A stretch of 37,518 nucleotides of DNA from a virus. The notes under the pieces were generated by a model. The model was not told the origin of the DNA. It saw nothing but the letters and a program-made list of their open reading frames with translations, and made no database searches. The stretch is taken from positions 1 to 37,518 of IMG/VR virus record IMGVR_UViG_3300034980_000169. One strand, written 5' to 3'. Each line of letters begins with the position of its first letter. Positions within the stretch are counted from its first letter, which is position 1. A program made the translations under genes and the position numbers. Below, one piece after another: positions 12,597 to 36,846 of the stretch.

Positions 12597-12788
12597 ATGA
12601 AAATAGAAAATACAAAGTATGAAAGAGATTTAAATTCAAAGGCTGTATTGAATACCAATAGAAATGCATTGGAAACTTATAAAGCATTAAAGAAACAAAG
12701 AGAAGAAGAAGCAAACACTATAAATAGTATGAAGGAAGATATTGAAGAATTAAAACAACTTGTTAAACAACTTTTATTAGAGAAATAA
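12597..12788 (+). CDS. Small coiled-coil protein
   Basis: A 63-residue charged protein. The frame is open from an ATG at 12576 inside the preceding gene, but the ATG at 12597, two bases after that gene's stop, is the more natural start. The second half (KALKKQREEEANTINSMK, then EDIEELKQLVKQLLLEK) has heptad spacing of Leu/Ile and is very probably a coiled coil. Small coiled-coil proteins between large baseplate and fibre genes could act as fibre trimerisation or attachment pieces, but this is inference and I do not recognise the family with certainty. The fibre gene at 12790 starts one base after it. Confidence 0.65.
   Translation: MKIENTKYERDLNSKAVLNTNRNALETYKALKKQREEEANTINSMKEDIEELKQLVKQLLLEK
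12719..12726 (+). promoter_or_regulatory. Possible internal late promoter box
   Basis: An exact TATAAATA lying inside the small coiled-coil gene, 63 bases upstream of the fibre start at 12790. It could drive the fibre block as a late promoter. Because it is intragenic and made only of A/T, chance occurrence is quite possible. Confidence 0.3.
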
Positions 12789-17364: not shown

Positions 17365-17739
17365 ATGAGGATATATAATATGTCAGAAGCTATTTCAGCA
17401 ATTAATTCTGATCTTAGATTTTCGGTTGATGAAGGTATAGAAAATGAAGAAGAAAGATTTAATAATATTATTTGGTATAACGGAGTTGACGAAAATAATT
17501 CTGTTATTGAAGGTGAACCTGATAACAAACCAACGTGGGCAGAGGTTGAAGTTGAATTTGCTAAAGTGAAAGCAGAAGGTATTGCTAACCAGTATTATAA
17601 AGATCGCATGTTTGAATATCCTAAGTTAGAAGATCAGTTTGATATGTTATGGCATGCGATAGATGACGGAACTTTAGATAAGACAAGTGATTTCTATACT
17701 GCTTTAAAAGTAGTAAAAGATAAATATCCTAAAGAATAA
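17365..17739 (+). CDS. Small PKE-ending protein, probable fibre assembly factor
   Basis: A 124-residue acidic protein ending in KYPKE. Its C-terminal half reads YYKDRMFEYPKLEDQFDMLW, followed by a helix and VVKDKYPKE. This resembles small tail-assembly chaperone-like proteins of many phages, whose C-terminal region has an EYPxxxDQ helix. Three other genes in the window (19332, 23748, 35932) share the EY(P) helix and PKE ending. The start has a good AAGGAG six bases upstream. It always sits just after a fibre gene, which supports an assembly or attachment role, but no function is proven. Confidence 0.7.
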   Translation: MRIYNMSEAISAINSDLRFSVDEGIENEEERFNNIIWYNGVDENNSVIEGEPDNKPTWAEVEVEFAKVKAEGIANQYYKDRMFEYPKLEDQFDMLWHAIDDGTLDKTSDFYTALKVVKDKYPKE

Positions 17740-17752
17740 AGAGAAAAAATAA

Positions 17753-18079
17753 ATGGGAACAAATACATTTAAAAATGCACAAGGAACTAATATAACAAGT
17801 GTCACTTCAATATATACTGCACCGTCATTAAAGACATCAATTTTATTAGAATTAGATATTGCAAATACTACAACGGCAGTAGTCGAAACTTCCGTACAGG
17901 TTACAGATACCTCTGCAAGTTCTACATCCTACCTCGTTAAAAATGCACCTATACCTTCGGGTAGTGCATTACAAGTCATATCAGGTCAAAAAGTTATACT
18001 AGAAGCAGGAGATATAATTAAAGTTACATCAAGCGGTGCAGTTGATTGTGTAGCTTCAATTTTAGAGGATGTAAACTAA
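17753..18079 (+). CDS. Small all-beta virion protein, paralogue of 22038
   Basis: A 108-residue protein predicted all-beta from its alternating pattern. It starts MGTNTFKNAQGTNITSVTS and contains LLELDIANTTTAVVETSVQV, NAPIPSGSALQVISGQKVIL and EAGDIIKV. A clear paralogue lies at 22038, sharing PIPSGSALxxxxGxKVxxExGDIxxV. Similar roughly 100-residue beta proteins are common in marine myoviruses. The function is unknown; a capping or decoration domain is possible. The next gene, an ISENIT-capped fibre, starts at the very next base, and the same arrangement recurs at 22370. Confidence 0.72.
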   Translation: MGTNTFKNAQGTNITSVTSIYTAPSLKTSILLELDIANTTTAVVETSVQVTDTSASSTSYLVKNAPIPSGSALQVISGQKVILEAGDIIKVTSSGAVDCVASILEDVN

Positions 18080-18634
18080 ATGTCATACATAGGTAAAACT
18101 CCTGACAGTTTAGTAACTGGACAAAATACGAGTGAAGATATTTTTACTGCTACTTCTAATCAAACTGCTTTTACTTTGACTGCCGATGTTGTTATTGAAA
18201 CAGATATTATTGTTTCTATCAATGGTGTAGTCCAATCTGGTACAGCATACGGAATGAGTGGTACTGGAAATCGAACTCTTACTTTTACAACTGGTCTAAC
18301 AGTTGGTGATAAAGTAAGAGTTTTGCATATTGGATTCAAACCAACTACAACTGTATTCGCAGACAATTCTGTAATAACTCAAAAGTTAGCTGCTAATGCT
18401 GTAACAGTTGCAAAGATTGCTGATGATGCAGTAACAGCGGCAAAAATACATGGTGATGTTGTATTGGGAGGTCCTTCGTTGGGAACTAATTCTGTTATAA
18501 GAACAAATGCAAATACCATTAGTGAGAATATAACATTTCTTACAAATACAAATGGTTCGAGTGTAGGAACAATTACAATAGCCTCTGGGTCTACGGTAAC
18601 AATAACTTCTGGAGCTCTTTGGAAAATTTTATGA
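18080..18634 (+). CDS. Short fibre: SYIG head, brief repeat, ISENIT cap
   Basis: A 184-residue fibre. The head (MSYIGKTPDSLVTGQ, then FTATSNQTAFTLTADV and SINGVVQSGTAY) is a beta domain seen in related form at 19689, 31656 and 33648. Only about two TTAKI-type repeats follow (residues 100-128). The last 55 residues from GGPSLGT (residue 130) are the cap module found in four genes here: GGPSLGTNSVIRTNANTISE, NIT, and a closing LWKIL. The gene starts directly after the small beta protein with no spacer. Its TGA overlaps an ATG (ATGA) that opens an 11-codon remnant. Confidence 0.78.
   Translation: MSYIGKTPDSLVTGQNTSEDIFTATSNQTAFTLTADVVIETDIIVSINGVVQSGTAYGMSGTGNRTLTFTTGLTVGDKVRVLHIGFKPTTTVFADNSVITQKLAANAVTVAKIADDAVTAAKIHGDVVLGGPSLGTNSVIRTNANTISENITFLTNTNGSSVGTITIASGSTVTITSGALWKIL
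18467..18631 (+). repeat. ISENIT cap module, copy 1 of 4
   Basis: Codes for the 55-residue C-terminal module beginning GGPSLGT and containing ISENIT. Other copies are at 22541-22705, 32199-32363 and 36685-36843. All four are 53-55 residues, start at the same residue and are strictly C-terminal. This marks an exchangeable fibre-end domain. Confidence 0.8.
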
Positions 18635-18666
18635 GTACATTAAAGAAACAAGAGGAGAATAAATAG
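18631..18666 (+). pseudogene. 11-codon remnant of a STIKV-type fibre start
   Basis: A mini-frame MSTLKKQEENK followed by TAG. Its ATG overlaps the TGA of the preceding ISENIT-capped gene. Its first five residues equal the head of the fibre at 29226 (MSTLKV) and nearly match those at 22705 and 25366. At 22705 the same ATGA junction leads into a full STIKV fibre, so here the rest of that fibre seems to have been replaced by the unrelated head at 18667, which begins at the next base. It may still couple translation, since GAGGAG within it serves as the next ribosome binding site. Confidence 0.5.
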
Positions 18667-19335
18667 ATGGCAGTAACTATTAACAGCAATGGCACCATAA
18701 CTGGCATAGCAGTAGGTGGCTTGCCGGACGGAGTAGTTGATGCAGGAACGCTTGCGACAAACTCGGTGGACTCAGCCGAATTAATAGATGGTGCAGTTGA
18801 TAATTCTCACTTGGCGACAGGTATTACTTCTTCAAAATTAAGTGGAAATTTACCTGCACTTAATGGTTCTGCTCTTACTGCTTTATCAGCTGCAAATTTA
18901 ACAGGGAATCTACCTGCGATAAGTGGTTCAAGTCTTACGGGAGTATATAATGTAGATAGTCTTGGTGCTAATTCACACAGTAAAATGATTGCTAGCACTT
19001 ACGATTTAAGCACCGCTTCTGGTAATAAAGACATTACTGGTTTTGGATTTGATCCTAAAATTGTTTTTATGTTTTGGGGGCAATCAGTATCAGTAAATTG
19101 GGGAATTGGATTTATGCAAGTAAATCAAAACGTGGGATATGGTATTCGCAACACAGGTGGTAGTACCACAGGGTTGGTAGATCAGGAGGGGAGTTTACTT
19201 GCTCATAAACAAACAGGTAATACTCACGCTCAAAATGGAATATTGAGTTCAATTACTGATGGTATTAGGATTGCTTTTACTAAGGTTGGAAGTCCTACGG
19301 GTAGCCTTCACATAAAAGTTCTAGGATTTAAATGA
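18667..19335 (+). CDS. Short tail fibre with beta-sandwich-type tip
   Basis: A 222-residue fibre. The head is short (MAVTINSNGTITGIAVGGLP). A few repeats follow (NSVDSAELIDGAVDNSHL, KLSGNLPALNGSALTAL). The tip (about 95-222, from NVDSLGANSHSKMI) has KDITGFGFDPKIVFMFWGQS and ends GSLHIKVLGFK. That ending resembles the HIQVYGLKPS ending of the fibre at 32378, suggesting related tip folds. GAGGAGAATAAATAG precedes the ATG. Its stop overlaps the next start (ATGATGA), so the small PKE protein downstream is probably translationally coupled. Confidence 0.75.
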   Translation: MAVTINSNGTITGIAVGGLPDGVVDAGTLATNSVDSAELIDGAVDNSHLATGITSSKLSGNLPALNGSALTALSAANLTGNLPAISGSSLTGVYNVDSLGANSHSKMIASTYDLSTASGNKDITGFGFDPKIVFMFWGQSVSVNWGIGFMQVNQNVGYGIRNTGGSTTGLVDQEGSLLAHKQTGNTHAQNGILSSITDGIRIAFTKVGSPTGSLHIKVLGFK

Positions 19336-19685
19336 TGACAACTTCTTACGTTAAAGAGAAAACAACAGGAAAAATATTAACTTCCACAACGGGTCAAGAT
19401 CAAAACAATCCTATTCATACTGAAGCTATGAATAGTTTTGTTACCAGTAGGGGATGGAGTTTAGATGACTATGAAATAGGTTTTGAAGATGATAATGTTG
19501 TTGAAGAATGGATTAATATACAAGATGAAGCTTCTAAAACTTACGCAGACAAACGCAAAGCAGAATATCCTTCTATTGAAGATGTTACAGTTGCACTTGC
19601 AGAAAAAGCAGAAGGTGATTCAACAATGTGGGACGAAATAACTGTAAAACGACAAGCAATTAAAGCTAAATACCCAAAGGAATAA
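19332..19685 (+). CDS. Small PKE-ending protein, probable fibre assembly factor
   Basis: A 117-residue acidic protein ending AIKAKYPKE. The N-terminal half (YVKEKTTGKILTST) resembles that of the protein at 35932 (FIKQKSTGKIVHRE), a shared family head. The C-terminal half has AEYPSIEDVTVALAEKAEG before the final helix. The ATG at 19332 overlaps the previous stop; a second ATG at 19335 is possible. The last codons (CCA AAG GAA TAA) contain the AAGGA that serves as ribosome binding site for the 780-residue fibre seven bases on. Confidence 0.72.
   Translation: MMTTSYVKEKTTGKILTSTTGQDQNNPIHTEAMNSFVTSRGWSLDDYEIGFEDDNVVEEWINIQDEASKTYADKRKAEYPSIEDVTVALAEKAEGDSTMWDEITVKRQAIKAKYPKE
19677..19681 (+). 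promoter_or_regulatory. Ribosome binding site embedded in PKE codons
   Basis: AAGGA formed by the Lys and Glu codons of the terminal PKE, seven bases from the ATG at 19689. The same arrangement with the same seven-base spacer occurs at 24087, 33636 and 36232, and with eight bases at 29213. Confidence 0.65.
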
Positions 19686-19688
19686 GCT

Positions 19689-22031
19689 ATGGCATATATT
19701 GGAAGAGGAGTAGAATTTGGTGAGTTTATAAAACAAACTCTAACACCGAATAGTTCAACAACAGCATTTGCTATGACCCATGCCGCATCTGCAAATAGTG
19801 TCTTAGTAGTTTATGGAAACATAGTTCAGGAACCGGGTGTTGGTTATACTTGTGCTGGTAGCACTATTACATTTACAGGTACACCCCAGACAGGGACATC
19901 ATTATACATTATATATATGGGTAGAGAATTAACAAGTCTTAATGCACCGGATGATTCTATAACAACTGCTAAGATAGCAGATGATGCAGTAACAACTGCT
20001 AAGATAGCTGATAATTCTATTACATCAGCTAAAATTGGTGTGGATGTTATCGTTGCAGAGGATATTGCCGCTAATGCAATTACTGTTTCAGAACTTCAAA
20101 ACAATGCAGTAACAACTGTAAAAATAATTGATGATGCAGTAACAACAGCAAAGATATTAGATTCAAATGTAACAGCTGCTAAGTTAGCTTCAGATGCAGT
20201 AACAACTGCTAAGATATTAAATTCTAATGTAACAACTGCAAAAATAGCAGATTTAAATGTAACAACTGGTAAGATAGCAGCCGATGCAATAACGGGTGCA
20301 AAAATAGCTGATGATACATTAGACTCGGAACATTACGCCGATGGAAGTATTGATACAGCTCACATCGCTGACTTACAAGTAACAACTGCTAAGTTAGCAG
20401 CCGATGCAATAACAGCAGCCAAGATAGCAGATGACGTTATCAATAGTGAACACTACGCCGCGGCAAGTATTGACAATGAACATTTAGCTGATGATGCAGT
20501 AACAACTGCAAAGATATTAAATGCAAATGTAACAACTGCTAAAATAGCAGATTTAAATGTAACAACTGCTAAGATAGCAGCTGATGCAATTACAGGAGCC
20601 AAGATAGCTGATGATACATTGGACTCAGAGCATTACGCCGATGGAAGTATTGACACAGCTCATCTCGCTGACGGTGCGATAACAGCAGCAAAGATAGCAG
20701 ACGGTACAGTAGTAGCAGCAGAGATAGCTTCTGATGCAGTAACAACAGTAAAGATTATAGATGATGCAGTAACAACTGCAAAGATATTAAATGCAAATGT
20801 AACAACTGCGAAGATAGCGGATGACGCAGTAACAACAGCAAAAATATTAGATGCAAATGTAACAACTGCTAAAATAGCAGCTGATGCTATTGATGGAACT
20901 AAACTAGCAGATAACGCATTGAACTCGGAGCATTATACTGATGGTTCAGTAGATGATATCCATATTAGTGGAATGGCTGCAAGCAAATTGACAGGAACTA
21001 TAACTCCTTCTGATAATACCGTTACTGGTGCTAAGATAGCACTTGGTTCTGACGCAGCAGGTGATGTCATGTATTATAATGGAACTGATTATGCTAGACT
21101 TGCAAAAGGAACTGCCGGACAAGTATTGACTATAAATTCTGGTGCGACTGCTCCTGAGTGGGCTGCTGATTCTACTAATGTTGGTGCTACGTCTGTTGGT
21201 GGTGATGTTACTGGTACAGTTGCAAATATTCAGATTGCTTCTGGTGCAGTAGGCACTACGGAACTTGCTGCTGACGCAGTTGATGGAACTAAACTCGCTG
21301 ATAATGCATTGGACTCGGAGCATTATACCGATGGAAGTATTGACGCTGCTCACTTGGCTTCTGATGCAGTAACAACAGCAAAGATATTAGATTCAAATGT
21401 AACAGCTGCTAAGTTAGCTTCAGATGCAGTAACAACTGCAAAGATATTAAATGCAAATGTAACAACTGCTAAAATAGCAGATGACGGAGTAACAACAGCA
21501 AAGATATTAGATTCAAATGTAACAACTGCTAAGATTGCTGATGACGCAATAACAACTGCGAAAATATTAAATGCAAATGTAACAACTGCTAAAATAGCAG
21601 CTGATGCTATTGATGGAACTAAACTCGCTGATAATGCATTGGACTCAGAGCATTACACCGATGGAAGTATTGATACAGCTCACCTTGGTGATTTACAAGT
21701 AACAACTGCTAAGATAGCAGCTGATGCAATTACAGGAGCCAAGATAGCTGATGATACATTGGACTCAGAGCATTACGCGGCAGGGTCTGTCGATCTTGAA
21801 CATATGAGTTCGCAAAGTGTTGATGAAGATAATCTACACATTAGTAATGCTGGAACTAACGGACAATTTTTATCAAAACAAAGTGGTAATACAGGTGGAT
21901 TAACTTGGGCTGATGCAACAACAACAGCTCAAGTGAATACTTTAATAGCAGCTGCAGGTCATCAGTCAGCTGCACAAGTTACAACTATTGCACAGGATGA
22001 AGCTGCTGCATTGGCAATAGCATTAGGATAA
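19689..22031 (+). CDS. Longest repeat fibre (780 residues)
   Basis: A 780-residue fibre. The head (MAYIGRGVEFGEFIKQTLTP, then TAFAMTHAASANSVLVVYGN) belongs to the SYIG/AYIG type. Residues about 88-430 and 520-700 hold some forty ten-residue repeats: [20 protein letters not shown] and DSEHYTDGSID forms in varied order. In between is a GDVMYYNGTDYARLAKGTAG, GATAPEW linker. The end (LTWADATTTAQVNTLIAAAG, then AAQVTTIAQDEAAALAIALG) is a short helical stretch, not a large tip, so this may be a shaft or a fibre whose tip is another gene product. Repeat length is probably variable between relatives. Confidence 0.78.
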   Translation: MAYIGRGVEFGEFIKQTLTPNSSTTAFAMTHAASANSVLVVYGNIVQEPGVGYTCAGSTITFTGTPQTGTSLYIIYMGRELTSLNAPDDSITTAKIADDAVTTAKIADNSITSAKIGVDVIVAEDIAANAITVSELQNNAVTTVKIIDDAVTTAKILDSNVTAAKLASDAVTTAKILNSNVTTAKIADLNVTTGKIAADAITGAKIADDTLDSEHYADGSIDTAHIADLQVTTAKLAADAITAAKIADDVINSEHYAAASIDNEHLADDAVTTAKILNANVTTAKIADLNVTTAKIAADAITGAKIADDTLDSEHYADGSIDTAHLADGAITAAKIADGTVVAAEIASDAVTTVKIIDDAVTTAKILNANVTTAKIADDAVTTAKILDANVTTAKIAADAIDGTKLADNALNSEHYTDGSVDDIHISGMAASKLTGTITPSDNTVTGAKIALGSDAAGDVMYYNGTDYARLAKGTAGQVLTINSGATAPEWAADSTNVGATSVGGDVTGTVANIQIASGAVGTTELAADAVDGTKLADNALDSEHYTDGSIDAAHLASDAVTTAKILDSNVTAAKLASDAVTTAKILNANVTTAKIADDGVTTAKILDSNVTTAKIADDAITTAKILNANVTTAKIAADAIDGTKLADNALDSEHYTDGSIDTAHLGDLQVTTAKIAADAITGAKIADDTLDSEHYAAGSVDLEHMSSQSVDEDNLHISNAGTNGQFLSKQSGNTGGLTWADATTTAQVNTLIAAAGHQSAAQVTTIAQDEAAALAIALG
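19951..21790 (+). repeat. Decapeptide repeat array (30-base units)
   Basis: Coding repeats with a 30-base period, such as GATGCAGTAACAACTGCTAA and variants, including DSEHY-type blocks. Units are in frame throughout and interrupted by a unique linker at about 20985-21220. Similar arrays occur in nearly all fibre genes of the window, so homologous recombination between genes is possible. Confidence 0.8.
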
Positions 22032-22037
22032 TAAAAA

Positions 22038-22370
22038 ATGGCTAATACATTTAAATCAGAAACATTTACAGGTGGTTCGACTGCGGCAAATACTGATATG
22101 ACAGTTTATACTGTACCTTCATCAACGACAACTATTATTATCGGTTTAACAATTAGTAATCTTACAAATAATAGTATTACTGTTGATGTAAAATTAGTAT
22201 CTTCTGCTGATGATAATATCCATATCGGTAAAAATCTTCCAATACCATCGGGTAGTGCTTTGAACGCATTAACAGGAAAGGTGGTAATGGAAACTGGTGA
22301 TATTCTAAGAGTGCAAAGTGATACAGCCAATAGTGCAGATATTGCTATGAGTATCATGGAGGTCACCTAA
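22038..22370 (+). CDS. Small all-beta virion protein, paralogue of 17753
   Basis: A 110-residue protein starting MANTFKSETFTGGSTAANTD. It contains IIIGLTISNLTNNSITVDVK, KNLPIPSGSALNALTGKVVM and ETGDILRV, the same beta pattern and key residues as the protein at 17753. Both lie directly before an ISENIT-capped short fibre; here the TAA overlaps the next ATG (TAATG). The pairing suggests the two products work together. The function is unknown. A weak GGATAATAAAA leader precedes the start. Confidence 0.72.
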   Translation: MANTFKSETFTGGSTAANTDMTVYTVPSSTTTIIIGLTISNLTNNSITVDVKLVSSADDNIHIGKNLPIPSGSALNALTGKVVMETGDILRVQSDTANSADIAMSIMEVT

Positions 22371-22708
22371 TGGCATTAGATAAACTTACTTCCGATATGA
22401 TAACAGCTGGTGCTGTTAATGCAGCTGCAATAGCAGACGGTACAGTAGTAGCTGCAGAGATAGCTGATGATGCAATAGTAACTGCTAAGATTGCGGATGA
22501 CGCAGTAACGGCTGCTAAGATACATGATGCTGTTGAACTCGGAGGACCTTCATTAGGAACATCAAGTGTTATCAGAACAAATGCAAATACCATTAGTGAG
22601 AATATAACATTTGCTTCAAACACAAATGGTGTAAGTGCAGGACCTATATCAATCGCTGACGGAAATTTCGTTGCAGTATCATCTGGAACTACTTGGTCTA
22701 TCATATGA
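22370..22708 (+). CDS. Minimal ISENIT-capped fibre
   Basis: A 112-residue protein, the shortest fibre here. It opens MALDKLTSDMITAGAVNAAA, has about five TTAKI-type repeats (to residue 55) and then the 55-residue cap ([22 protein letters not shown], closing TWSII). It lacks the SYIG head of 18080 and instead has an ALDKLTS/ALSRIET-like opening, as in 36244 and 2657. The start overlaps the previous stop and its own TGA overlaps the next ATG. AGGTCACC-type bases upstream give a GGAGG ribosome binding site (ATGGAGGTCACCTAATG). Confidence 0.78.
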   Translation: MALDKLTSDMITAGAVNAAAIADGTVVAAEIADDAIVTAKIADDAVTAAKIHDAVELGGPSLGTSSVIRTNANTISENITFASNTNGVSAGPISIADGNFVAVSSGTTWSII

Positions 22709-23739
22709 GTACAATAAAAGTAGATACAGTAACGACATTAGACGGAACAGGAAACATTACTTTAAGTAGGCCTTTAACTGGTTTGTCTGGTAGTGGTGCA
22801 TCTTTGACTGCATTGAATGCTACTGAACTTACAAGTGGTACTTTACCAATGGCTAGATTGTCAGGAACTCTACCTGCACTTAATGGTTCTGCTCTTACTG
22901 CTCTTAATGCAACTAATCTTGCAAGTGGTACTGTTCCAACTGCTAGACTAGGATCGGGTACTGCTAACAATGGAGTTTTTTTAAGAGGTGATGGTACATG
23001 GAACGCAGCTGGTGGTGGAGTAGATGGTATATCTTCATCTGCTGATGCGACTGCTATAACTATTACCTCGGCAGAAAAAGTTGGGATAGGTATTACAAAT
23101 CCAAACTCAACATTTGTAGTATCTGATGGTGGAGCGTATGGAATGGAATTTTATCCTAACGATAATAATGTATCTAAAATTCTTGCTTATGATAGAAGTG
23201 GTAGTGCGTATCGAGATTTTAAAATTTCTGGTAATCAGGTAATATTTGGATATGGTACATCAGGCAATAATGAAGGTATGCGTATTAATAATGTTGGTGC
23301 GATAACAATGCCTAAACAACCGTGTTTTCAGGCTCAAATTACTGGACCGGGTGAGAATAATGTTACTGGTAATAGTGCTACATATACTGTAGGATTTGCT
23401 ACTGAAAATTTTGATCTAGCTGGGAACTTTGCGTCAGGTACATTTACTGCTCCAGTAACAGGTAAATATCTTTTATCCGTACACATAACGGTAGCAGGAG
23501 TAACAGGGGCTTCTGATGGTTATGATATACAAATATTAACTTCTAATCGTCAGTATCAGACTTCTGAACATCTATGGGGTGATGGACATTATTCACAAAG
23601 ATATAATTCTCTTGTTGTTATTGCTGACATGGATGCGTCTGATACAGCCTATGTAAGAATTATTGGTACTGGTGAGTCGGGTAATGTGTGGGACATTGGT
23701 GGTGTTACACCTAAATTTTATGGATGTTTATTAGCCTAA
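22705..23739 (+). CDS. Tail fibre: STIKV head, C1q-like tip
   Basis: A 344-residue fibre. The frame is open from an ATG at 22693, but the ATG at 22705, overlapping the previous stop as ATGA, gives the MSTIKVDTVTTL head shared with 25366 and 29226 and is preferred. The middle has SGTLPALNGSALTALNATNL, VPTARLGSGTANNGVFLRGD linkers and a GISSSADATAITI, VGIGITNP stretch. From about residue 207 a C1q/TNF-like jelly roll is visible: FQAQITGPGENNVTGN, FDLAGNFASGTFTAP, VTGKYLLSVHITVAG, ending FYGCLLA. Such tips are trimeric receptor-binding folds. The small PKE-ending gene follows nine bases later. Confidence 0.8.
   Translation: MSTIKVDTVTTLDGTGNITLSRPLTGLSGSGASLTALNATELTSGTLPMARLSGTLPALNGSALTALNATNLASGTVPTARLGSGTANNGVFLRGDGTWNAAGGGVDGISSSADATAITITSAEKVGIGITNPNSTFVVSDGGAYGMEFYPNDNNVSKILAYDRSGSAYRDFKISGNQVIFGYGTSGNNEGMRINNVGAITMPKQPCFQAQITGPGENNVTGNSATYTVGFATENFDLAGNFASGTFTAPVTGKYLLSVHITVAGVTGASDGYDIQILTSNRQYQTSEHLWGDGHYSQRYNSLVVIADMDASDTAYVRIIGTGESGNVWDIGGVTPKFYGCLLA
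22957..22997 (+). repeat. 41-base exact repeat shared with 24342-24382
   Basis: Identical 41 bases occur at 22957-22997 and 24342-24382, in the FLRGDGT linker of two neighbouring fibres, with further near-identity around them. A close variant lies at about 29825 in a third fibre. Identity over synonymous positions points to recent exchange or duplication. Confidence 0.8.
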
Positions 23740-23747
23740 AGGGAATT

Positions 23748-24095
23748 ATGATATTAACTAAAAGACAATTAGATGTTCTCAATCATGTTGTAGTCAACGG
23801 ACAAGAGTGGGCTGATAATGCAAAACAAGAATCTCATATTCTTGATAAAATTGCTAATCACGAATCATCTTATGATGAAGCTGTTGCAAAAGGGAATTAT
23901 AAAAATCGTAAACAGCGTGATGAAGAAATAACAAGATTAGAACAAGAAAAATACGATAATGCATCTTGGGATGTTAAGAGACAGCGAGAGTACCCGAGAA
24001 TTTCAGAGTTAGTAGTGGCTTTATATGATGAAGATGATAAAGCAGAAATCATTAAACGCAGAGCCGAAGTTAAATTAAAGTACCCAAAGGAATAA
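23748..24095 (+). CDS. Small PKE-ending protein, probable fibre assembly factor
   Basis: A 115-residue charged protein. The frame extends up to an ATG at 23724 inside the previous gene, but AAAGGGAA just before the ATG at 23748 decides the start. It contains KRQLDVLNHVVVNGQEWADN, SWDVKRQREYPRISELVVAL and ends AEVKLKYPKE. SWDVKRQREY is very close to SYDVKRKREY in the protein at 35932, a direct sign of common ancestry. Largely helical. The terminal AAG GAA codons form the ribosome binding site of the S74 fibre downstream. Confidence 0.72.
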   Translation: MILTKRQLDVLNHVVVNGQEWADNAKQESHILDKIANHESSYDEAVAKGNYKNRKQRDEEITRLEQEKYDNASWDVKRQREYPRISELVVALYDEDDKAEIIKRRAEVKLKYPKE

Positions 24096-24098
24096 GAT

Positions 24099-25361
24099 AT
24101 GCCCCAATTAGATTTTGATGGAGCGAACTCAAGACTCTCCGCCGACAACATAAGAGGACAGAGTGGAAGCACGATAACCATTGTAAGTGGACATAATTTG
24201 GTTGGAAGCGGTTCTGGATTAACTGCTTTACCAGCAGCTAACTTAACAGGAACTATATCTGCTATTAGTGGCGCTAATCTTACAAATCTTAATGCTACTA
24301 ATTTAGCAAGTGGTACAGTACCAACAGCTAGACTTGGAAGTGGTACTGCTAACAATGGAGTTTTTTTAAGAGGTGATGGTACTTGGGCAGCTGCTGGTGG
24401 TGGAGTAGATGGTATTGTGTCATCTGCTAATGCAACTGCTATTACGATAGATAGTGATGAAAATATTCTTATAGGAACAACAAATTCTTATGTAAGAGGG
24501 ATGATAGATATTGAAATGCCTAATTCCACATCTACATCAGATTACTTGCATAGAGTAGGATTACGACTTGATAGTCGGTGTGGTGCAAATGAAATTGGCC
24601 CTAGTATAGAATTTAGTACATCAGGTAATGCTGAAGCACTTATTGGTTTGAAGAACCACAGTCAGGTTGGTACACAACAGGCTCATATGTTTTTCAGAAT
24701 AAAATCTGATACTAGCACTACTACCATGACAGAATTTATGCGTGTTACACCACCTTATTATACTAGTTTTCCAAAACCTGTATTATTCGGATTATCTGGT
24801 AGTACAGCACCAAAATCTGTAGGTTCGTTGGAAGTTGAGTCAACAGTAGGACAAGATAATGGTTTAATTGTTTGGACTTCAACTAACAATTCAGGTGCGA
24901 TGAATATGGTGAGTTTTCGTGCTAATTCAACAACCGAAGTTGGTTCAATAAGATCAACTTCATCTTCTACTTCTTTTAATACTTCATCTGATTATCGTTT
25001 AAAAGAAAATGTAGTACCAATGACGGGAGCAATAGACAGAATTAAACTATTCAAACCATTACGATTCAATTTCATTACTAACCCAAGTAAAGTTGTAGAT
25101 GGTTTCTTGGCACACGAAGCACAAGAAATAGTTCCAGAGGCTGTTGATGGTACGAAAGATGAGATGGAGGAGTATGAAGCAACTCCTGCTGAAATCGGTG
25201 AAGATGGTAATATTAGTAAAGAAGCAGTAATGGGCTCAAGAGCAAAGATGCAAGGAATAGATCAGGCTAAGATTGTTCCTCTGCTTGTTGGAGCATTACA
25301 AGAATCTATTACACGAATTGAAAGTTTAGAACAAGAAGTTGCAACATTAAAAGGAGAATAA
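24099..25361 (+). CDS. Tail fibre with C-terminal S74 self-cleaving chaperone
   Basis: A 420-residue fibre. The head is short (MPQLDFDGANSRLSADNIRG). Linkers LPAANLTGTISAISGANLTN and VFLRGDGTWAAAGG follow. The middle domain (about 140-295) includes IGTTNSYVRGMIDIEMPN and EVESTVGQDNGLIVW. The last 124 residues are a peptidase S74 / endosialidase-type intramolecular chaperone: S297-D-Y-R-L-K302 (the expected Ser/Lys autocleavage site), then FKPLRFNF, DGFLAHEAQEIVPEAVDG, and a final coiled coil (ITRIESLEQEVATLKGE). In this family the chaperone trimerises the fibre and cuts itself off. AAGGA from the previous gene is its ribosome binding site. Confidence 0.88.
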   Translation: MPQLDFDGANSRLSADNIRGQSGSTITIVSGHNLVGSGSGLTALPAANLTGTISAISGANLTNLNATNLASGTVPTARLGSGTANNGVFLRGDGTWAAAGGGVDGIVSSANATAITIDSDENILIGTTNSYVRGMIDIEMPNSTSTSDYLHRVGLRLDSRCGANEIGPSIEFSTSGNAEALIGLKNHSQVGTQQAHMFFRIKSDTSTTTMTEFMRVTPPYYTSFPKPVLFGLSGSTAPKSVGSLEVESTVGQDNGLIVWTSTNNSGAMNMVSFRANSTTEVGSIRSTSSSTSFNTSSDYRLKENVVPMTGAIDRIKLFKPLRFNFITNPSKVVDGFLAHEAQEIVPEAVDGTKDEMEEYEATPAEIGEDGNISKEAVMGSRAKMQGIDQAKIVPLLVGALQESITRIESLEQEVATLKGE

Positions 25362-29225: not shown

Positions 29226-30695
29226 ATGAGTACACTAAAAGTAGACACTATTGATACATCTGATAGTTCAGGAAACATAACAGTAAGTAGACCTTTGGCT
29301 GGTAGTGGTGCTTCTTTAACTGCTCTTAATGCTACTGAACTTACAAGTGGAACAATACCAATTGCTCGTATTGCTGATGGTGCAATAACAGCAGCCAAGA
29401 TAGCAGACGGTACAGTAGTGGCAGCAGAGATAGCTAGTAATGCAGTAACAACAATAAAGATAATTGATGATGCCGTAACAACAGCAAAAATATTAGATGC
29501 AAATGTAACAACTGCTAAAATAGCAGCTGATGCTATTGATGGAACTAAACTGGCAGACAACGCCTGCGATAGTGAGCATTACACCGATGGAAGCATTGAC
29601 TTAGCTCATATGAGTGCAAATAGTATTGACTCGGATCAATATGTTGATGGAAGCGTTGACAATGTTCATTTGGCTACAGGAATTGATGCCGCAAAATTAA
29701 CTACAGGTACTTTACCAATGGCCAGACTATCTGGTACATTACCTGCACTTAATGGTTCAGCACTTACAGCACTTAATGCTACTAATCTTGGGAGTGGTAC
29801 AGTACCAACGGCTAGACTAGGAACTGGTACTGCTAATAGTGGAGTTTTTTTAAGAGGTGATGGTACTTGGGATACTGCTGGGTCAACAAGTGCTAGTGAT
29901 TTAACTTCTGGTACTTTACCAATGGCCAGACTATCTGGTACATTACCTGCACTTAATGGTTCAGCACTTACAGCACTTAATGCTACTGAACTTACAAGTG
30001 GAACAATACCAATTGCTCGTATTGCTGATGATGCAGTAACAAATGCTAAGATGGCTGATGACGCAATTGATTCAGCACAGATAGCGAATGGAGCAGTTGA
30101 CCTTGTCCATATGAGTGTGAATAGTATTGACTCGGATCAATATGTTGATGGAAGTATTGATTTAGCTCATTTATCGGCAGACTGCGTGGATGGCACAAAA
30201 ATAGCAGATGATGCCATCAATAGTGAACACTACGCTGCAGCAAGTATTGACGCTGAACATTTAGCTGGTGGAAAAGATGGTGCTTTTAAAATGGATGCAA
30301 ACCCTGATGTAGACCATTTTGGTGTCGGGCCACAGACTAGTACATTATCTGCTGGTGCAACCATAACCATTATGGATTTGGTTTATGTTGGGGGTAGTGG
30401 CAAGTGGTTAAAAACTGATGCCGATGCGACAGGTACTTCTATTAACTTATTAGGTATATCATTGGAATCAAAAACTGATACACAAGCCATGAATGTGGCT
30501 TTACCCGGTAGTTTTGTTCGTGATGATACTTGGAACTGGTCATCTGGCCAGCCTCTTTATATCAGCACTACTGCTGGTGCTATAACAAGTTCGAAACCTA
30601 CTGGTAGTGGAGATGTTGTAAGAACAATTGGATATGCAGTTAACGCTGACACTATCTTTTTTAACCCTTCAAGTGATTATGTCACACTAGCCTAA
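29226..30695 (+). CDS. Tail fibre: STLKV head, long repeats, decoration-type tip
   Basis: A 489-residue fibre. The head MSTLKVDTIDTSDSSGNITV is of the STIKV type. Repeats run to about residue 345 and include two copies of a SGTLPMARLSGTLPALNGSA block (near residues 160 and 238) and the linker VFLRGDGTWDTAG. The tip (about 348-489) reads ITIMDLVYVGGSGKWLKTDA, then INLLGISLESKTDTQAMNVA and GDVVRTIGYAVNADTIFFNP. This looks like the small beta fold of DUF2190-type decoration proteins, an uncertain resemblance. The stop overlaps the next ATG (TAATG), coupling it to the glycine-rich adhesin. Confidence 0.78.
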   Translation: MSTLKVDTIDTSDSSGNITVSRPLAGSGASLTALNATELTSGTIPIARIADGAITAAKIADGTVVAAEIASNAVTTIKIIDDAVTTAKILDANVTTAKIAADAIDGTKLADNACDSEHYTDGSIDLAHMSANSIDSDQYVDGSVDNVHLATGIDAAKLTTGTLPMARLSGTLPALNGSALTALNATNLGSGTVPTARLGTGTANSGVFLRGDGTWDTAGSTSASDLTSGTLPMARLSGTLPALNGSALTALNATELTSGTIPIARIADDAVTNAKMADDAIDSAQIANGAVDLVHMSVNSIDSDQYVDGSIDLAHLSADCVDGTKIADDAINSEHYAAASIDAEHLAGGKDGAFKMDANPDVDHFGVGPQTSTLSAGATITIMDLVYVGGSGKWLKTDADATGTSINLLGISLESKTDTQAMNVALPGSFVRDDTWNWSSGQPLYISTTAGAITSSKPTGSGDVVRTIGYAVNADTIFFNPSSDYVTLA

Positions 30696-31655: not shown

Positions 31656-32366
31656 ATGTCATACATAGGTTTTAAACCAGTACAGGGTAGCGCACACCTC
31701 GTAGATGAATTTACTTCATCTGGTGGAAGTACATATACTCTAAGTAGTCAACCAACAAATAAGGATGTAGTAGAAGTTGTAGTTGGTGGATTAACACAGT
31801 CATCCTCTGCATATTCTTTTAGTGGAACTACTTTAACACTTGCTGGTGTTGCCTCTGGTACAAAAATAATTGTAAGACAGCATGGTGAAAAATTATTAAC
31901 ACCAATACCCGGTGATGATAGTGTAACGGGAGCAAAAATTGCTGATAACGCATTGGACTCGGAGCATTATGTTGATGGAAGTATTGACACAGCTCACATC
32001 GCTGATGGTGCAATTACAGCCGCGAAGATAGCAGACGGCACAGTAGTAGCAGCAGAGATAGCCAGTAATGCAGTAACAACTGTAAAAATAATTGATGACG
32101 CAGTAACAACAGCTAAGATAGCAGATGCAAATATAACGACAGCACTAATTGCTGATGATGCAGTAACGGCAGCCAAGATAGCAGATGCAGTTGCATTGGG
32201 AGGACCGTCATTGGGAACAAGTTCAATAATTCGTACCAATGCAAAAACGATTTCTGAAAATATTACATTCGCAGGAAATGAAAACGGAATGACTGTCGGA
32301 CCTATTACGGTTGCAAATAATTATTCTGTAATAGTAACAAATGGTTCAACTTGGACAATAGTATAA
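31656..32366 (+). CDS. ISENIT-capped fibre with SYIG head
   Basis: A 236-residue fibre. The head MSYIGFKPVQGSAHLVDEFT, SSGGSTYTLSSQPTNKDVVE and LTLAGVASGTKIIVRQHGE is closely related to that at 33648. Some eight repeats follow (residues 90-180), including [20 protein letters not shown]. The last 55 residues from residue 182 form the cap ([28 protein letters not shown]). It plays the same part in the gene order as 18080, 22370 and 36244, being followed at once by a STIKV-type fibre. An AAAGAGAAAAAAATAAA leader precedes the ATG. Confidence 0.78.
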   Translation: MSYIGFKPVQGSAHLVDEFTSSGGSTYTLSSQPTNKDVVEVVVGGLTQSSSAYSFSGTTLTLAGVASGTKIIVRQHGEKLLTPIPGDDSVTGAKIADNALDSEHYVDGSIDTAHIADGAITAAKIADGTVVAAEIASNAVTTVKIIDDAVTTAKIADANITTALIADDAVTAAKIADAVALGGPSLGTSSIIRTNAKTISENITFAGNENGMTVGPITVANNYSVIVTNGSTWTIV

Positions 32367-32370
32367 GGAG
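32365..32370 (+). promoter_or_regulatory. Ribosome binding site supporting a TTG start
   Basis: AAGGAG seven bases before a TTG at 32378, overlapping the previous stop codon. The protein beginning at that TTG reads (M)ASTIKV, matching the ATG-started STIKV heads of neighbouring fibres, and no ATG lies nearby in frame. Confidence 0.7.
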
Positions 32371-32377
32371 AAATTAG

Positions 32378-33271
32378 TTGGCCTCAACTATTAAAGTAAC
32401 AAATATAGATACGCCTGATAGTACAGGAAACATAACTGTTGATAGGCCTTTGTCTGGTAGTGGTGCTTCTTTGACTGCTTTGAATGCTACTCAACTTACA
32501 AGTGGAACAATACCAATCGCTCGTATAGCTGATGATGCAGTAACAAATGCTAAGATGGCTAATGACGCAATTGATTCAGCACAGATAGCTGATAATGCAG
32601 TAACACTTGCTAAGATGGCTGGAGGAACAGACGGTCAAGTAATTACTTATGATGCGTCTGGTGATCCTGTAGCAGTTGGACCGGGAACTGATGGTCAGGT
32701 ATTAACATCCACAGGAGCGGGAAGTCCTCCTGCATTTGAAGATGTTGGTTCATCTTATTCCCTTATTCACAATTCAACTACAGCAGCAGCAGCACGAGCA
32801 TTTACTGGAATGTCACGGACAACATATACAATGGGTTGGTGGATTTACTTTAATACTGTATATCCTTCGACTGCTGGCGATATTGAACTATTGGTGTCAG
32901 GTAATGATGGTTCTAGTTATCATGGTGCTTATACTTTTGCGATGGGTGGGCATGACTGGGATGGGACTGCTATAAATCGTAATATAACATCAGCCGGTTC
33001 CGAAATAAAATTAAATATTGGAACAGTTTGGAATATCGCTCCCGCAGGAATGTCAGGTTGGATTTTTATTCCACAATCTCTTGGTAGTGCCAATGTTGGG
33101 ATAGTTTGGAGTATGGGCAGTATGGAAAATTCTTCAGCAGATAAAGAAAGATATATTGGGTTTGGTGCTTGTGATAATGCTGTAGTCGATATTAATGCCT
33201 TTAAAATTGAAACGAGTAATGGTTCAAATGTAAATGGCCATATTCAAGTATATGGTTTGAAACCCTCTTAA
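32378..33271 (+). CDS. Tail fibre with STIKV head, TTG start
   Basis: A 297-residue fibre starting at TTG, supported by AAGGAG and by the conserved head (ASTIKVTNIDTPDSTGNITV). SGSGASLTALNATQLTSGT and a handful of repeats follow, then DGQVITYDASGDPVAVGPG and DGQVLTSTGAGSPPAFEDVG linkers. The tip (about 125-297) starts YSLIHNSTTAAAARAFTGMS and includes YTMGWWIYFNTVYPS and MSGWIFIPQSLGSANVG, ending NGHIQVYGLKPS. It has the look of a beta-sandwich and its ending is akin to that of the fibre at 18667. A PKE-ending small gene follows, as after other second-position fibres. Confidence 0.78.
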   Translation: MASTIKVTNIDTPDSTGNITVDRPLSGSGASLTALNATQLTSGTIPIARIADDAVTNAKMANDAIDSAQIADNAVTLAKMAGGTDGQVITYDASGDPVAVGPGTDGQVLTSTGAGSPPAFEDVGSSYSLIHNSTTAAAARAFTGMSRTTYTMGWWIYFNTVYPSTAGDIELLVSGNDGSSYHGAYTFAMGGHDWDGTAINRNITSAGSEIKLNIGTVWNIAPAGMSGWIFIPQSLGSANVGIVWSMGSMENSSADKERYIGFGACDNAVVDINAFKIETSNGSNVNGHIQVYGLKPS

Positions 33272-33281
33272 GGATAATAAG

Positions 33282-33644
33282 ATGCCGAGATTTTTGAATA
33301 TTAATGATGTATTAGTTCAATGTACCGCAGAGGAAGAAGCTGAATTTGATGCTAAAGCATCAGCAAATCCTCCTCCAGCTCTTGAGCAATTCAAAGAAAA
33401 AAAGATTGCAAAAATGAAAGCTAAAATTGCTTTACGTTACAGTAATAATGTGGATCGTTATTATTTAAAAAAAGCAAGATTAGAGGCTGAAGAGGAAAGT
33501 TATGAAGTGCCAGAAAAAATTAAAACTTATGCTACGGCTTTAAAAACTGTATCAGACAAAATGGAAATAGATATAAACGCATTGTCTTTAATTGATGATG
33601 TTCGAGATTATAAAATTTCTTGGCCTGATAACCCAAAGGAATGA
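33282..33644 (+). CDS. Small PKE-ending protein, IKTY/INALS family
   Basis: A 120-residue helical, charged protein. It has no clear match to the EYP-helix members but contains VPEKIKTYATALKTVSDKME and IDINALSLIDDVRDYKISWP, closely paralleling IKTYRAAIRTESGKK and EINALSDLDAVKLY in the 207-residue protein at 28598. It ends DNPKE. Tail-assembly chaperone-like proteins of other phages have a comparable pattern near the C-terminus. The last codons AAG GAA again form a ribosome binding site, seven bases before the fibre at 33648; the stop here is TGA. AGGATAATAAG precedes its ATG. Confidence 0.72.
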   Translation: MPRFLNINDVLVQCTAEEEAEFDAKASANPPPALEQFKEKKIAKMKAKIALRYSNNVDRYYLKKARLEAEEESYEVPEKIKTYATALKTVSDKMEIDINALSLIDDVRDYKISWPDNPKE

Positions 33645-33647
33645 TGA

Positions 33648-35438
33648 ATGAATAGTTATGTAGGAAATACTCCAACGACAGGACACTTCCCAACTGATAC
33701 TTTTACAAGTTCAGGTGGAAGTACATATACATTAAGTCAAACACCTGCAACAACAGGTTCTATTGAAGTTAGTGTTCAAGGTGTACTACAAGCTGTTTCT
33801 GCATATTCATTAAGTGGTACAACACTTACACTTGCTGGTGTAACATCAGGAGATGTTATATTTGTTAGACATCTCGGAGAAACTTTACTAGTACCAGCAC
33901 CAGCTGACGCTACTGTAACAACGGCAAAGATAGTAGATGCAAATGTAACAACAGCAAAAATAGCTGACAATGCAATAACAGCAGCAAAGATAGCAGACGG
34001 TACAGTAGTTGCCGCAGAGATAGCTAGTAATGCAGTAACAACAGCAAAAATAATTGATGACGCAGTAACAACTGCTAAGATATTAAATGCAAATGTAACA
34101 ACAGCCAAGATAGCTGATGATGCAATTACAACAGCAAAAATATTAAATGCAAATGTAACAACTGCGAAAATAGCAGCTGATGCCGTTGATGGAACTAAAC
34201 TAGCAGACAACGCTTGCGATAGTGAACATTACACCGATGGAAGTATTGATTTAGCTCATCTAGCGGCAGACTGCGTGGATGGTACAAAAATTGCTGATGA
34301 TGCAATCAATAGCGAACATTACGCGGCAGCAAGTATTGACAATGAACATTTAGCTGATGATGCTGTTGGTATACCAGAATTAAGTGCAACAGGTACTGCT
34401 TCCTCATCTACTTTTTTAAGAGGTGATAATGCATGGGCCGCAGCTGGTGAAATTACAAAGTCTGCGAGTTATCCTCACTTAACAACAAATCCTTCTGGAG
34501 GTGTTGGTACTCTTTGGTTACGAACTACATCAGGTGAAATGTTTTGTTGTACAGACGCAACTAGTAATGCAAATGTTTGGACTAATTTAAGTGGTAGTGG
34601 TGATATAAGACCTTCAATGGTAGTGGCAGCTACTGGTGGAACTATAACAACAGATGGGAATTATAAAGTTCATACCTTTAATTCTTCAGCTACATTTACA
34701 GTTACTTCAACGGGTGGTGGTGATGCAGGTGGTGGTTTAGTTGAATATTTGGTTGTTGCCGGTGGAGGAGGAGGTGCTGGTGGTTCTGCCGGTGGAGGAG
34801 GAGGAGGTGCTGGTGGTTATAGTGCAGGAATAAATTTTCCTGTCGTAGCACAAGCTTATACAGTAACTATTGGTGCTGGTGGTGCTGGTAATACAAGTCC
34901 TGACAATAATCATGGTACAAAGGGAGCTGATACTCTTTTTGGTTCAATTATTTCATCGGGTGGTGGTTATGGTGCCGGTGGAGGTGTCGCACCATCTTAT
35001 ATAGGTCATGGTGGAAATGGAGGTTCAGGTGGTGGAGGACGATATGCTGGAACAGGTGGTTCTGGAACACTTGAACAAGGAAATGCTGGTGGTGGTAGTA
35101 CAACTGCTGGTTCACGAGGTGGCGGTGGCGGTGGAGGAGCTTCTGCTGCTGGTGCAGATGGAGATAGTGGAGAAGGTGGTGCAGGTGGTGCTGGACAATC
35201 AAGTTCAATAACTGGTTCTGCTGTAGTAAAATGTGGAGGTGGTGGTGGCGGAGCATTCACAGGTGGAACAGGTGGTTCAGGTGGAACAGGTGGCGGTGGT
35301 AATGGCCATGGTGAAAGTGGCGGCACACAAACTGCTGGTACAGCACATACGGGTGGAGGTGGAGGTGCTAATGGTGGTTCTTCTAATGGTGCAGCTGGTG
35401 GTTCAGGTTGTGTAGTTATTCGATATCTATTTCAATAA
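33648..35438 (+). CDS. Tail fibre: SYVG head, repeats, glycine-rich tip
   Basis: A 596-residue fibre. The head (NSYVGNTPTTGHFPTDTFTS, SGGSTYTLSQTPATTGSIEV) is paralogous to that at 31656. About fifteen repeats fill residues 90-250, with DNACDSEHYTDGSID blocks, then a SSTFLRGDNAWAAAGE linker. The module TTNPSGGVGTLWLRTTSGEM-FCC near residue 299 and YKVHTFNSSATFTV match the fibre at 2657 almost unit for unit. The C-terminal glycine-rich domain (about 365-596) ends SGCVVIRYLFQ. It therefore combines a SYIG head with the tip of the fibre embedded in the baseplate cluster, a clear sign of module exchange. Confidence 0.8.
   Translation: MNSYVGNTPTTGHFPTDTFTSSGGSTYTLSQTPATTGSIEVSVQGVLQAVSAYSLSGTTLTLAGVTSGDVIFVRHLGETLLVPAPADATVTTAKIVDANVTTAKIADNAITAAKIADGTVVAAEIASNAVTTAKIIDDAVTTAKILNANVTTAKIADDAITTAKILNANVTTAKIAADAVDGTKLADNACDSEHYTDGSIDLAHLAADCVDGTKIADDAINSEHYAAASIDNEHLADDAVGIPELSATGTASSSTFLRGDNAWAAAGEITKSASYPHLTTNPSGGVGTLWLRTTSGEMFCCTDATSNANVWTNLSGSGDIRPSMVVAATGGTITTDGNYKVHTFNSSATFTVTSTGGGDAGGGLVEYLVVAGGGGGAGGSAGGGGGGAGGYSAGINFPVVAQAYTVTIGAGGAGNTSPDNNHGTKGADTLFGSIISSGGGYGAGGGVAPSYIGHGGNGGSGGGGRYAGTGGSGTLEQGNAGGGSTTAGSRGGGGGGGASAAGADGDSGEGGAGGAGQSSSITGSAVVKCGGGGGGAFTGGTGGSGGTGGGGNGHGESGGTQTAGTAHTGGGGGANGGSSNGAAGGSGCVVIRYLFQ
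34176..34225 (+). repeat. 50-base exact repeat shared with 37295-37344
   Basis: Fifty identical bases occur here and at 37295-37344, coding for ADAVDGTKLADNACDS plus a partial codon. The inner part GCAGACAACGCTTGCGATAG also occurs at 16386 and 37202, and with one change at 29553. Identity at synonymous positions across unlinked genes suggests recombination or gene conversion. Confidence 0.8.
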
Positions 35439-36243: not shown

Positions 36244-36846
36244 ATGGCATTATCAAGAATAGAAACAGATGGAATTTCGGACAGTGCTATCACAGCAGCA
36301 AAGATAGCTGACGGTACAGTAGTAGCTGCAGAGATTGCTGACGGTGCAATTACAACTGCTAAGTTAGCCAGTTCCGCAGTAACAGCAGCGAAGATAGCAG
36401 ACGGTACAGTAGTAGCTGCTGAGATAGCTGATGGTGCAGTAACAACAGCAAAAATAGCTGCTGACGCAGTAACGGCCGCCAAAGTGGCTGATGATATTAT
36501 TAACTCGGAGCATTATGCTGCGGGAAGTATTGATACTGCTCACATCGCTGCTTCACAAATTACTACAGCACTAGTAGCTGATGATGCAGTAACAACAGCT
36601 AAGATATTAAATGCAAATGTAACGACTGCAAAGATTGCTGATGATGCAATTACAACTGCGAAGATACATGATGATGTTGCATTGGGAGGACCTTCTTTAG
36701 GAACATCAAGTGTTATGAGAACAAATGCAAATTCAATTAGTGAGAATATAACAGTACCGAGTGGCACCAATGCGATGAGTGTAGGTCCTATGACTTTGTC
36801 AGTAGGAAACACCATTACTTGTAATGGTGTTTATAGAGTTATTTAA
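36244..36846 (+). CDS. ISENIT-capped fibre, repeat-rich
   Basis: A 200-residue fibre. The opening [20 protein letters not shown] is like that of 22370 and 2657, with no separate head. About thirteen repeats follow ([38 protein letters not shown]). From residue 148 comes the cap ([20 protein letters not shown], then [15 protein letters not shown], ending YRVI), 53 residues. It starts the next round of the cassette order and is followed 13 bases later by another fibre. A GGAGAATAAAAA leader then serves that gene. Confidence 0.78.

Follow-up and report, generated by a model that had tools for sequence, protein, structure and literature searches.

What is a reading frame of only 11 codons doing between two tail-fibre genes, and where did it come from? 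The frame lies in a window, by which we mean the whole 37,518-base virus record analysed here, in which a long array of fibre-like genes lies behind the gp6-like and baseplate wedge genes. A total of 174 phage records contain relatives of the ISENIT-type protein of this array; most are from Synechococcus and Prochlorococcus phages, and two are from Pelagibacter phages. Baseplate neighbours, fibre-like proteins and cyanophage and pelagiphage relatives are the features of a fibre array in a T4-like marine myovirus, and we infer that the virus is of this type. In isolate phages, no match was found for the DNA of 17700-19700 or for the protein of the fibre gene at 18667, and none of 110 candidate stretches in genome_contigs was confirmed as a relative of the 18080 protein. 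The junction that contains the short frame is composed as follows.

18080..18634, + strand: ISENIT-type fibre gene, a chimera with its front like L002-L004 and its back like the paralogue at 22370 (blastn)
18631..18666, + strand: mini-frame MSTLKKQEENK, 11 codons (the sequence itself)
18631..18645, + strand: left half, very likely a cut-off STxK fibre start, MSTLK, overlapping the ISENIT stop (ATGA census of relatives; alignment of heads)
18646..18651, + strand: bases between the two recognisable halves, which align neither to STxK heads nor, without a 6-nt gap, to the L064 leader
18652..18666, + strand: right half, a GAGGAG ribosome-binding leader that in L064 has its match in the last bases of a KYPKE-type accessory gene (alignment; best of 2,536 leaders)
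18667..19335, + strand: MAVTINSNG-headed fibre gene with a head like L063/L064 and a stalk like L062 (blastn)
19332..19685, + strand: KYPKE-type accessory gene that forms a pair with the fibre at 18667 (phrog_9114, E 5.4e-06)

The mini-frame reads ATG AGT ACA TTA AAG AAA CAA GAG GAG AAT AAA TAG. Its ATG and the TGA of the ISENIT gene (18632-18634) share bases, giving ATGA, and its TAG directly abuts the ATG at 18667. The initial annotation had described a frame that opens by an ATGA overlap after the ISENIT fibre and then stops, as is seen here, and had explained it as the scar of a STIKV fibre replaced by the unrelated fibre at 18667. With up to 3 mismatches allowed, the window was found to contain the 36-nt word only once, with 0 further copies expected by chance.

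With a probability of roughly 0.78, we read the mini-frame as a recombination joint in the tail-fibre array, with the start of a STxK fibre gene on its left and the leader of a MAVTINSNG fibre on its right. The left five or so codons would be the beginning of a STLK/STIKV-type fibre gene whose start overlaps the upstream ISENIT stop. The right part would be the leader of the MAVTINSNG fibre, a stretch with which, in the nearest relatives, a KYPKE accessory gene ends, while the STxK fibre body and most of the accessory gene would have been lost, or never imported.

For the left half, a census was made of the genes that follow ISENIT-type ends, and it draws on 4 ends of the window and 60 of related viral contigs once 19 duplicates, recognised by an identical 90-base key, and 2 ends lying too close to a contig border had been dropped. 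The next gene after the 60 distinct ends begins with MST[LIV] in 32 cases, is MGxLNVG-type in 8, belongs to other types in 7 and is a different mini-frame in 3; a MA[IV]xIN head follows in the remaining 10, a share that is inflated because loci L066-L096 were picked for carrying MAxxIN heads. An exact ATGA overlap is present in 27 of the 32 MST[LIV] cases and in no gene of the other classes, so that every such overlap in the relatives (27/27) opens a MST[LIV] gene. All 32 of these genes have full length or are cut by the contig end, and a stop after 11 codons is found in the window only. Tight spacing is also seen in cyanophage isolates, where the next gene follows the ISENIT-like gene with a 0-1 base overlap in the five records examined of the 174 matching; in three of these five the ISENIT-like gene is labelled T4-GC 347.

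Short ATG frames of 5-59 codons begin with MST[LIV] in 24 and with MST[LIV]K in 5 of 13,379 cases in the window and 95 loci, a total that counts overlapping loci and includes the mini-frame itself; a random short frame therefore seldom resembles the mini-frame. Because of this rarity and of the 27 of 27 overlaps, the left half is very likely the start of a fibre gene, homologous to the beginning of genes that stand intact at the same boundary elsewhere, among them the one at 22705. The start of the mini-frame is not random.

The same counts bear on the idea that the frame was a leader from the outset, a short coupling frame of chance or selective origin that never had anything to do with a STIKV fibre. 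Short leaders do occur at such junctions, as a different frame of 14 codons (MYIIN...) separates the end of an ISENIT-like fibre from a MAVxIN head in L077 (reverse strand), L083:4755-4808 and L084 (reverse strand). However, this frame is unrelated in sequence to the mini-frame, and the three differences among its copies all change an amino acid, as would be expected of leader DNA and not of a selected peptide, although three changes are few. With only 5 of 13,379 short frames beginning MST[LIV]K, and with all ATGA overlaps at this boundary in relatives opening a MST[LIV] gene, an original leader frame is an unlikely explanation. In ten relatives, 2-7 bases and no mini-frame lie between the ISENIT-type end and a MA[IV]xIN head; hence the frame is dispensable for this pair of neighbours.

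For comparison with the mini-frame junction, the window itself holds further ISENIT genes:

22370..22708, + strand: second ISENIT gene, the comparison junction
22705..23739, + strand: intact STIKV fibre, MSTIKVDTV, 344 aa, opened by ATGA, with a KYPKE accessory gene behind it that ends at 24095
31656..32366, + strand: third ISENIT gene
32378..33271, + strand: STIKV fibre behind the third ISENIT gene, followed by a NPKE accessory gene at 33282..33644
36244..36846: fourth ISENIT gene, absent from the initial annotation, with MSEFKVNKI following after 16 nt

At 22705 the identical ATGA overlap opens a full STIKV fibre, just as the initial annotation had it. A STIKV fibre likewise follows the ISENIT gene at 32378; it lies 14 nt past the stop, with a TTG start and no ATGA overlap. 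This gene apparently begins at TTG as MASTIKV, and its counterpart in L085 has ATG. The fibre at 29226, to which the initial annotation assigned the MSTLK head, indeed begins with MSTLKV, and it does not follow an ISENIT gene.

The order ISENIT, STIKV fibre, xPKE accessory gene and next fibre thus occurs twice in the window (22370-24099 and 31656-33648). In L085 the genes follow one another as ISENIT, MASTIKV fibre, PKENK accessory gene, MPQ fibre, KYPKGGN accessory gene and MAIAIN fibre, with surrounding genes that differ from those of the window. The search for a full STIKV fibre in relatives, which had been proposed as a check, hence found the whole order in L085 and favours a STxK fibre as the usual occupant. 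These arrangements also speak for a full STIKV fibre having stood at this very site in the lineage before it was replaced or deleted, its start being left behind as a scar, and we regard such a history as a serious possibility with somewhat less than even odds. Against it stands L002, whose YIGK fibre front shares 86% DNA identity with the window and which has the same upstream genes (MGTNTF, YIGK fibre), followed by an accessory gene ending KFPKGAN and a MAIAIN fibre, without a STIKV fibre at this place. L003 has the same upstream genes as well, then an accessory gene ending DIPK, and again no STIKV fibre there.

A second point against a resident STIKV fibre comes from the upstream gene, to which the ISENIT 3' module is foreign together with the overlapping start that it carries. 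Bases 1-317 of the 18080 gene share 86% identity with L002, L003 and L004, whereas bases 269-503 share 75.7% identity with window positions 22422-22656, inside the ISENIT gene at 22370 (blastn). Since the 18080 gene is chimeric and L002 and L003 lack the STIKV fibre, the ISENIT 3' module may have been imported together with its overlapping start; if so, a full STIKV fibre need never have stood here in this lineage. Two routes to the recombination joint are conceivable. A resident pair of STxK fibre and accessory gene could have been deleted by a cut that removed everything between the STIKV start and the accessory tail, or the ISENIT 3' module could have been imported with the overlapping ATGAGTAC at its end as a hitch-hiker and joined to the old leader. 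As judged from these alignments, the STLK start may have come in as a passenger of the ISENIT 3' module. Intermediates between an intact cassette and the mini-frame were not found in the relatives.

The right half was compared with the leaders of related fibre genes. Bases 1-79 of the 18667 gene share 95% identity with L063 and 91% with L064, and bases 34-213 share 76% with L062 (blastn). In L063 and L064, which carry the closest MAVTINSNG heads and lie on the same contigs as L090 and L092, the preceding accessory genes end in KYPKE and KYPKENN, respectively. In viral_contigs, such heads were found only in L090 and L092, and in genome_contigs there were none. Aligned to L064, the window shows a likeness that begins at GGAG, takes in the start codon and continues far into the head. 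When the 24 leader bases of the mini-frame plus ATGGC were compared without gaps with 2,536 gene leaders from the fetched sequences, the L064 leader ranked first with 23 of 29 positions (mean 10.4, sd 2.5). In an unrestricted gapped search with the 41-nt joint, the L064 score of 20.0 was reached by 8 of 60 dinucleotide shuffles and is not significant, so that the match convinces only by its position. It is this homologous position, directly before a related head, that makes the right half probably homologous to the L064 MAVTINSNG leader, and thus to a different segment than the left half. The string GGAGAATAA in it is a common ribosome-binding string, which also precedes other heads in the window at 25353 and 36848. 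The 3' part of the mini-frame with ATGGC had 0 exact matches in viral_contigs, and 0 further STxK mini-frames ending in GGAGAATAA were found in the search.

The GAGGAG that the mini-frame supplies for the start at 18667 is a real leader, in agreement with the initial annotation. The scar proposed there is borne out as a truncated STxK start by the 27 of 27 overlaps, while its replacement by the 18667 fibre is disfavoured as stated, because L002 has at this place an accessory gene with a MAxxIN fibre after it, and because MAVTINSNG-type heads of relatives already have the 3' half of the frame as their leader.

Both halves might instead derive from one and the same fibre gene, as its head and its coiled-coil tail, brought together by an internal in-frame deletion. 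An end of this kind is the ATLKGE end at 25361, where the fibre of 24099-25361 reads ACATTAAAAGGAGAATAACTAAATG, near to the mini-frame with an 8-nt gap; moreover, fibre ends that we take to be S74-like precede MAxxIN heads in L076 and L095. On the other hand, the KKQEENK tail has 0 DNA matches in viral_contigs, and the ungapped leader match of this fibre end reaches 19 of 29 positions compared to 23 of 29 for L064, which makes a deletion within a single gene improbable. A further coiled-coil likeness was set aside. The small coiled-coil gene at 12597-12788 reads ALKKQREEE at 12685, against TLKKQEEN in the mini-frame, with 14 bases common in frame, and shuffled sequences equalled or exceeded this score within the window in 4 of 60 cases.

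Short sequence identity between STxK heads and xPKE tails was considered as a driver of the joining. In-frame shared words of at least 9 occur in 1.7% of 1,776 pairs of STxK heads and xPKE tails, compared to 0.56% with codon-shuffled tails and 0.26% with other gene ends. As the pairs are not independent, the approximately 2-3-fold excess over the codon-shuffled controls is treated as a weak signal, and microhomology was not retained as an explanation. A search for STxK heads joined to an xPK tail by 18 nt or less gave 19 matches, all of which proved unrelated to fibre junctions on inspection.

With regard to function, the initial annotation had suggested that the frame may be retained as a coupling leader, and the layout permits translational coupling through the mini-frame. 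Ribosomes ending at the TGA could restart at the overlapping ATG and then terminate at the TAG, and a new start at 18667 could use the GAGGAG 9 nt upstream of it. The RNA fold of 18600-18720 is no stronger than that of shuffled sequences (z -0.02), and recurrence of the frame in relatives with a constrained peptide or structure was not seen. Most likely the mini-frame is functionally neutral, while still allowing such coupling. That remnants with a kept overlapping start and stop are retained as short translational relays, which would keep any downstream fibre cassette coupled, is a speculative idea to which we give little credence; if it were true, the STLK frame would be one instance and the MYIIN frame, unrelated to it and found at a similar junction, a second and independent one.

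As a remnant of a gene start at a recombination joint, the mini-frame is probably a known kind of trace. Mosaic phage genomes have novel joints where one segment passes into an unrelated one at the edge of a gene or close to it, and a short remnant without function stays behind; the remnant described here differs in that it keeps a reading frame and its start and stop contacts on both sides, and so reads as a mini-gene. Translationally coupled genes share with the locus the ATGA overlap upstream and the abutment of stop and start downstream, but coupling here would run through a frame of 11 codons. For T4-like pelagimyophages and cyanomyophages, a host recognition cluster has been described with a variable tail-fibre array in the structural region (PMC7029224). 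The variation reported in the part of that work considered here concerns whole genes and does not include gene-start remnants such as the one proposed for this window.

The mini-frame would hence be a legible footprint of the shuffling of tail fibres, which are host-recognition genes, and a fairly ordinary trace that requires no new kind of system. A start codon that overlaps the stop before it can move together with the module upstream; therefore, truncated gene starts mark the joins between cassettes, and such footprints could serve to map past fibre exchanges.

Small accessory genes ending in KYPKE, NPKE or HPKE stand behind many of the fibre genes, in the window at 17365, 19332, 23748, 33282 and 35932. 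None of these five was above the cut-off in Pfam, and ten accessory-type proteins gave sub-threshold matches only. Two of the three accessory genes tested matched phrog_9114, a family of unknown function, and the accessory genes may be fibre-specific assembly helpers.
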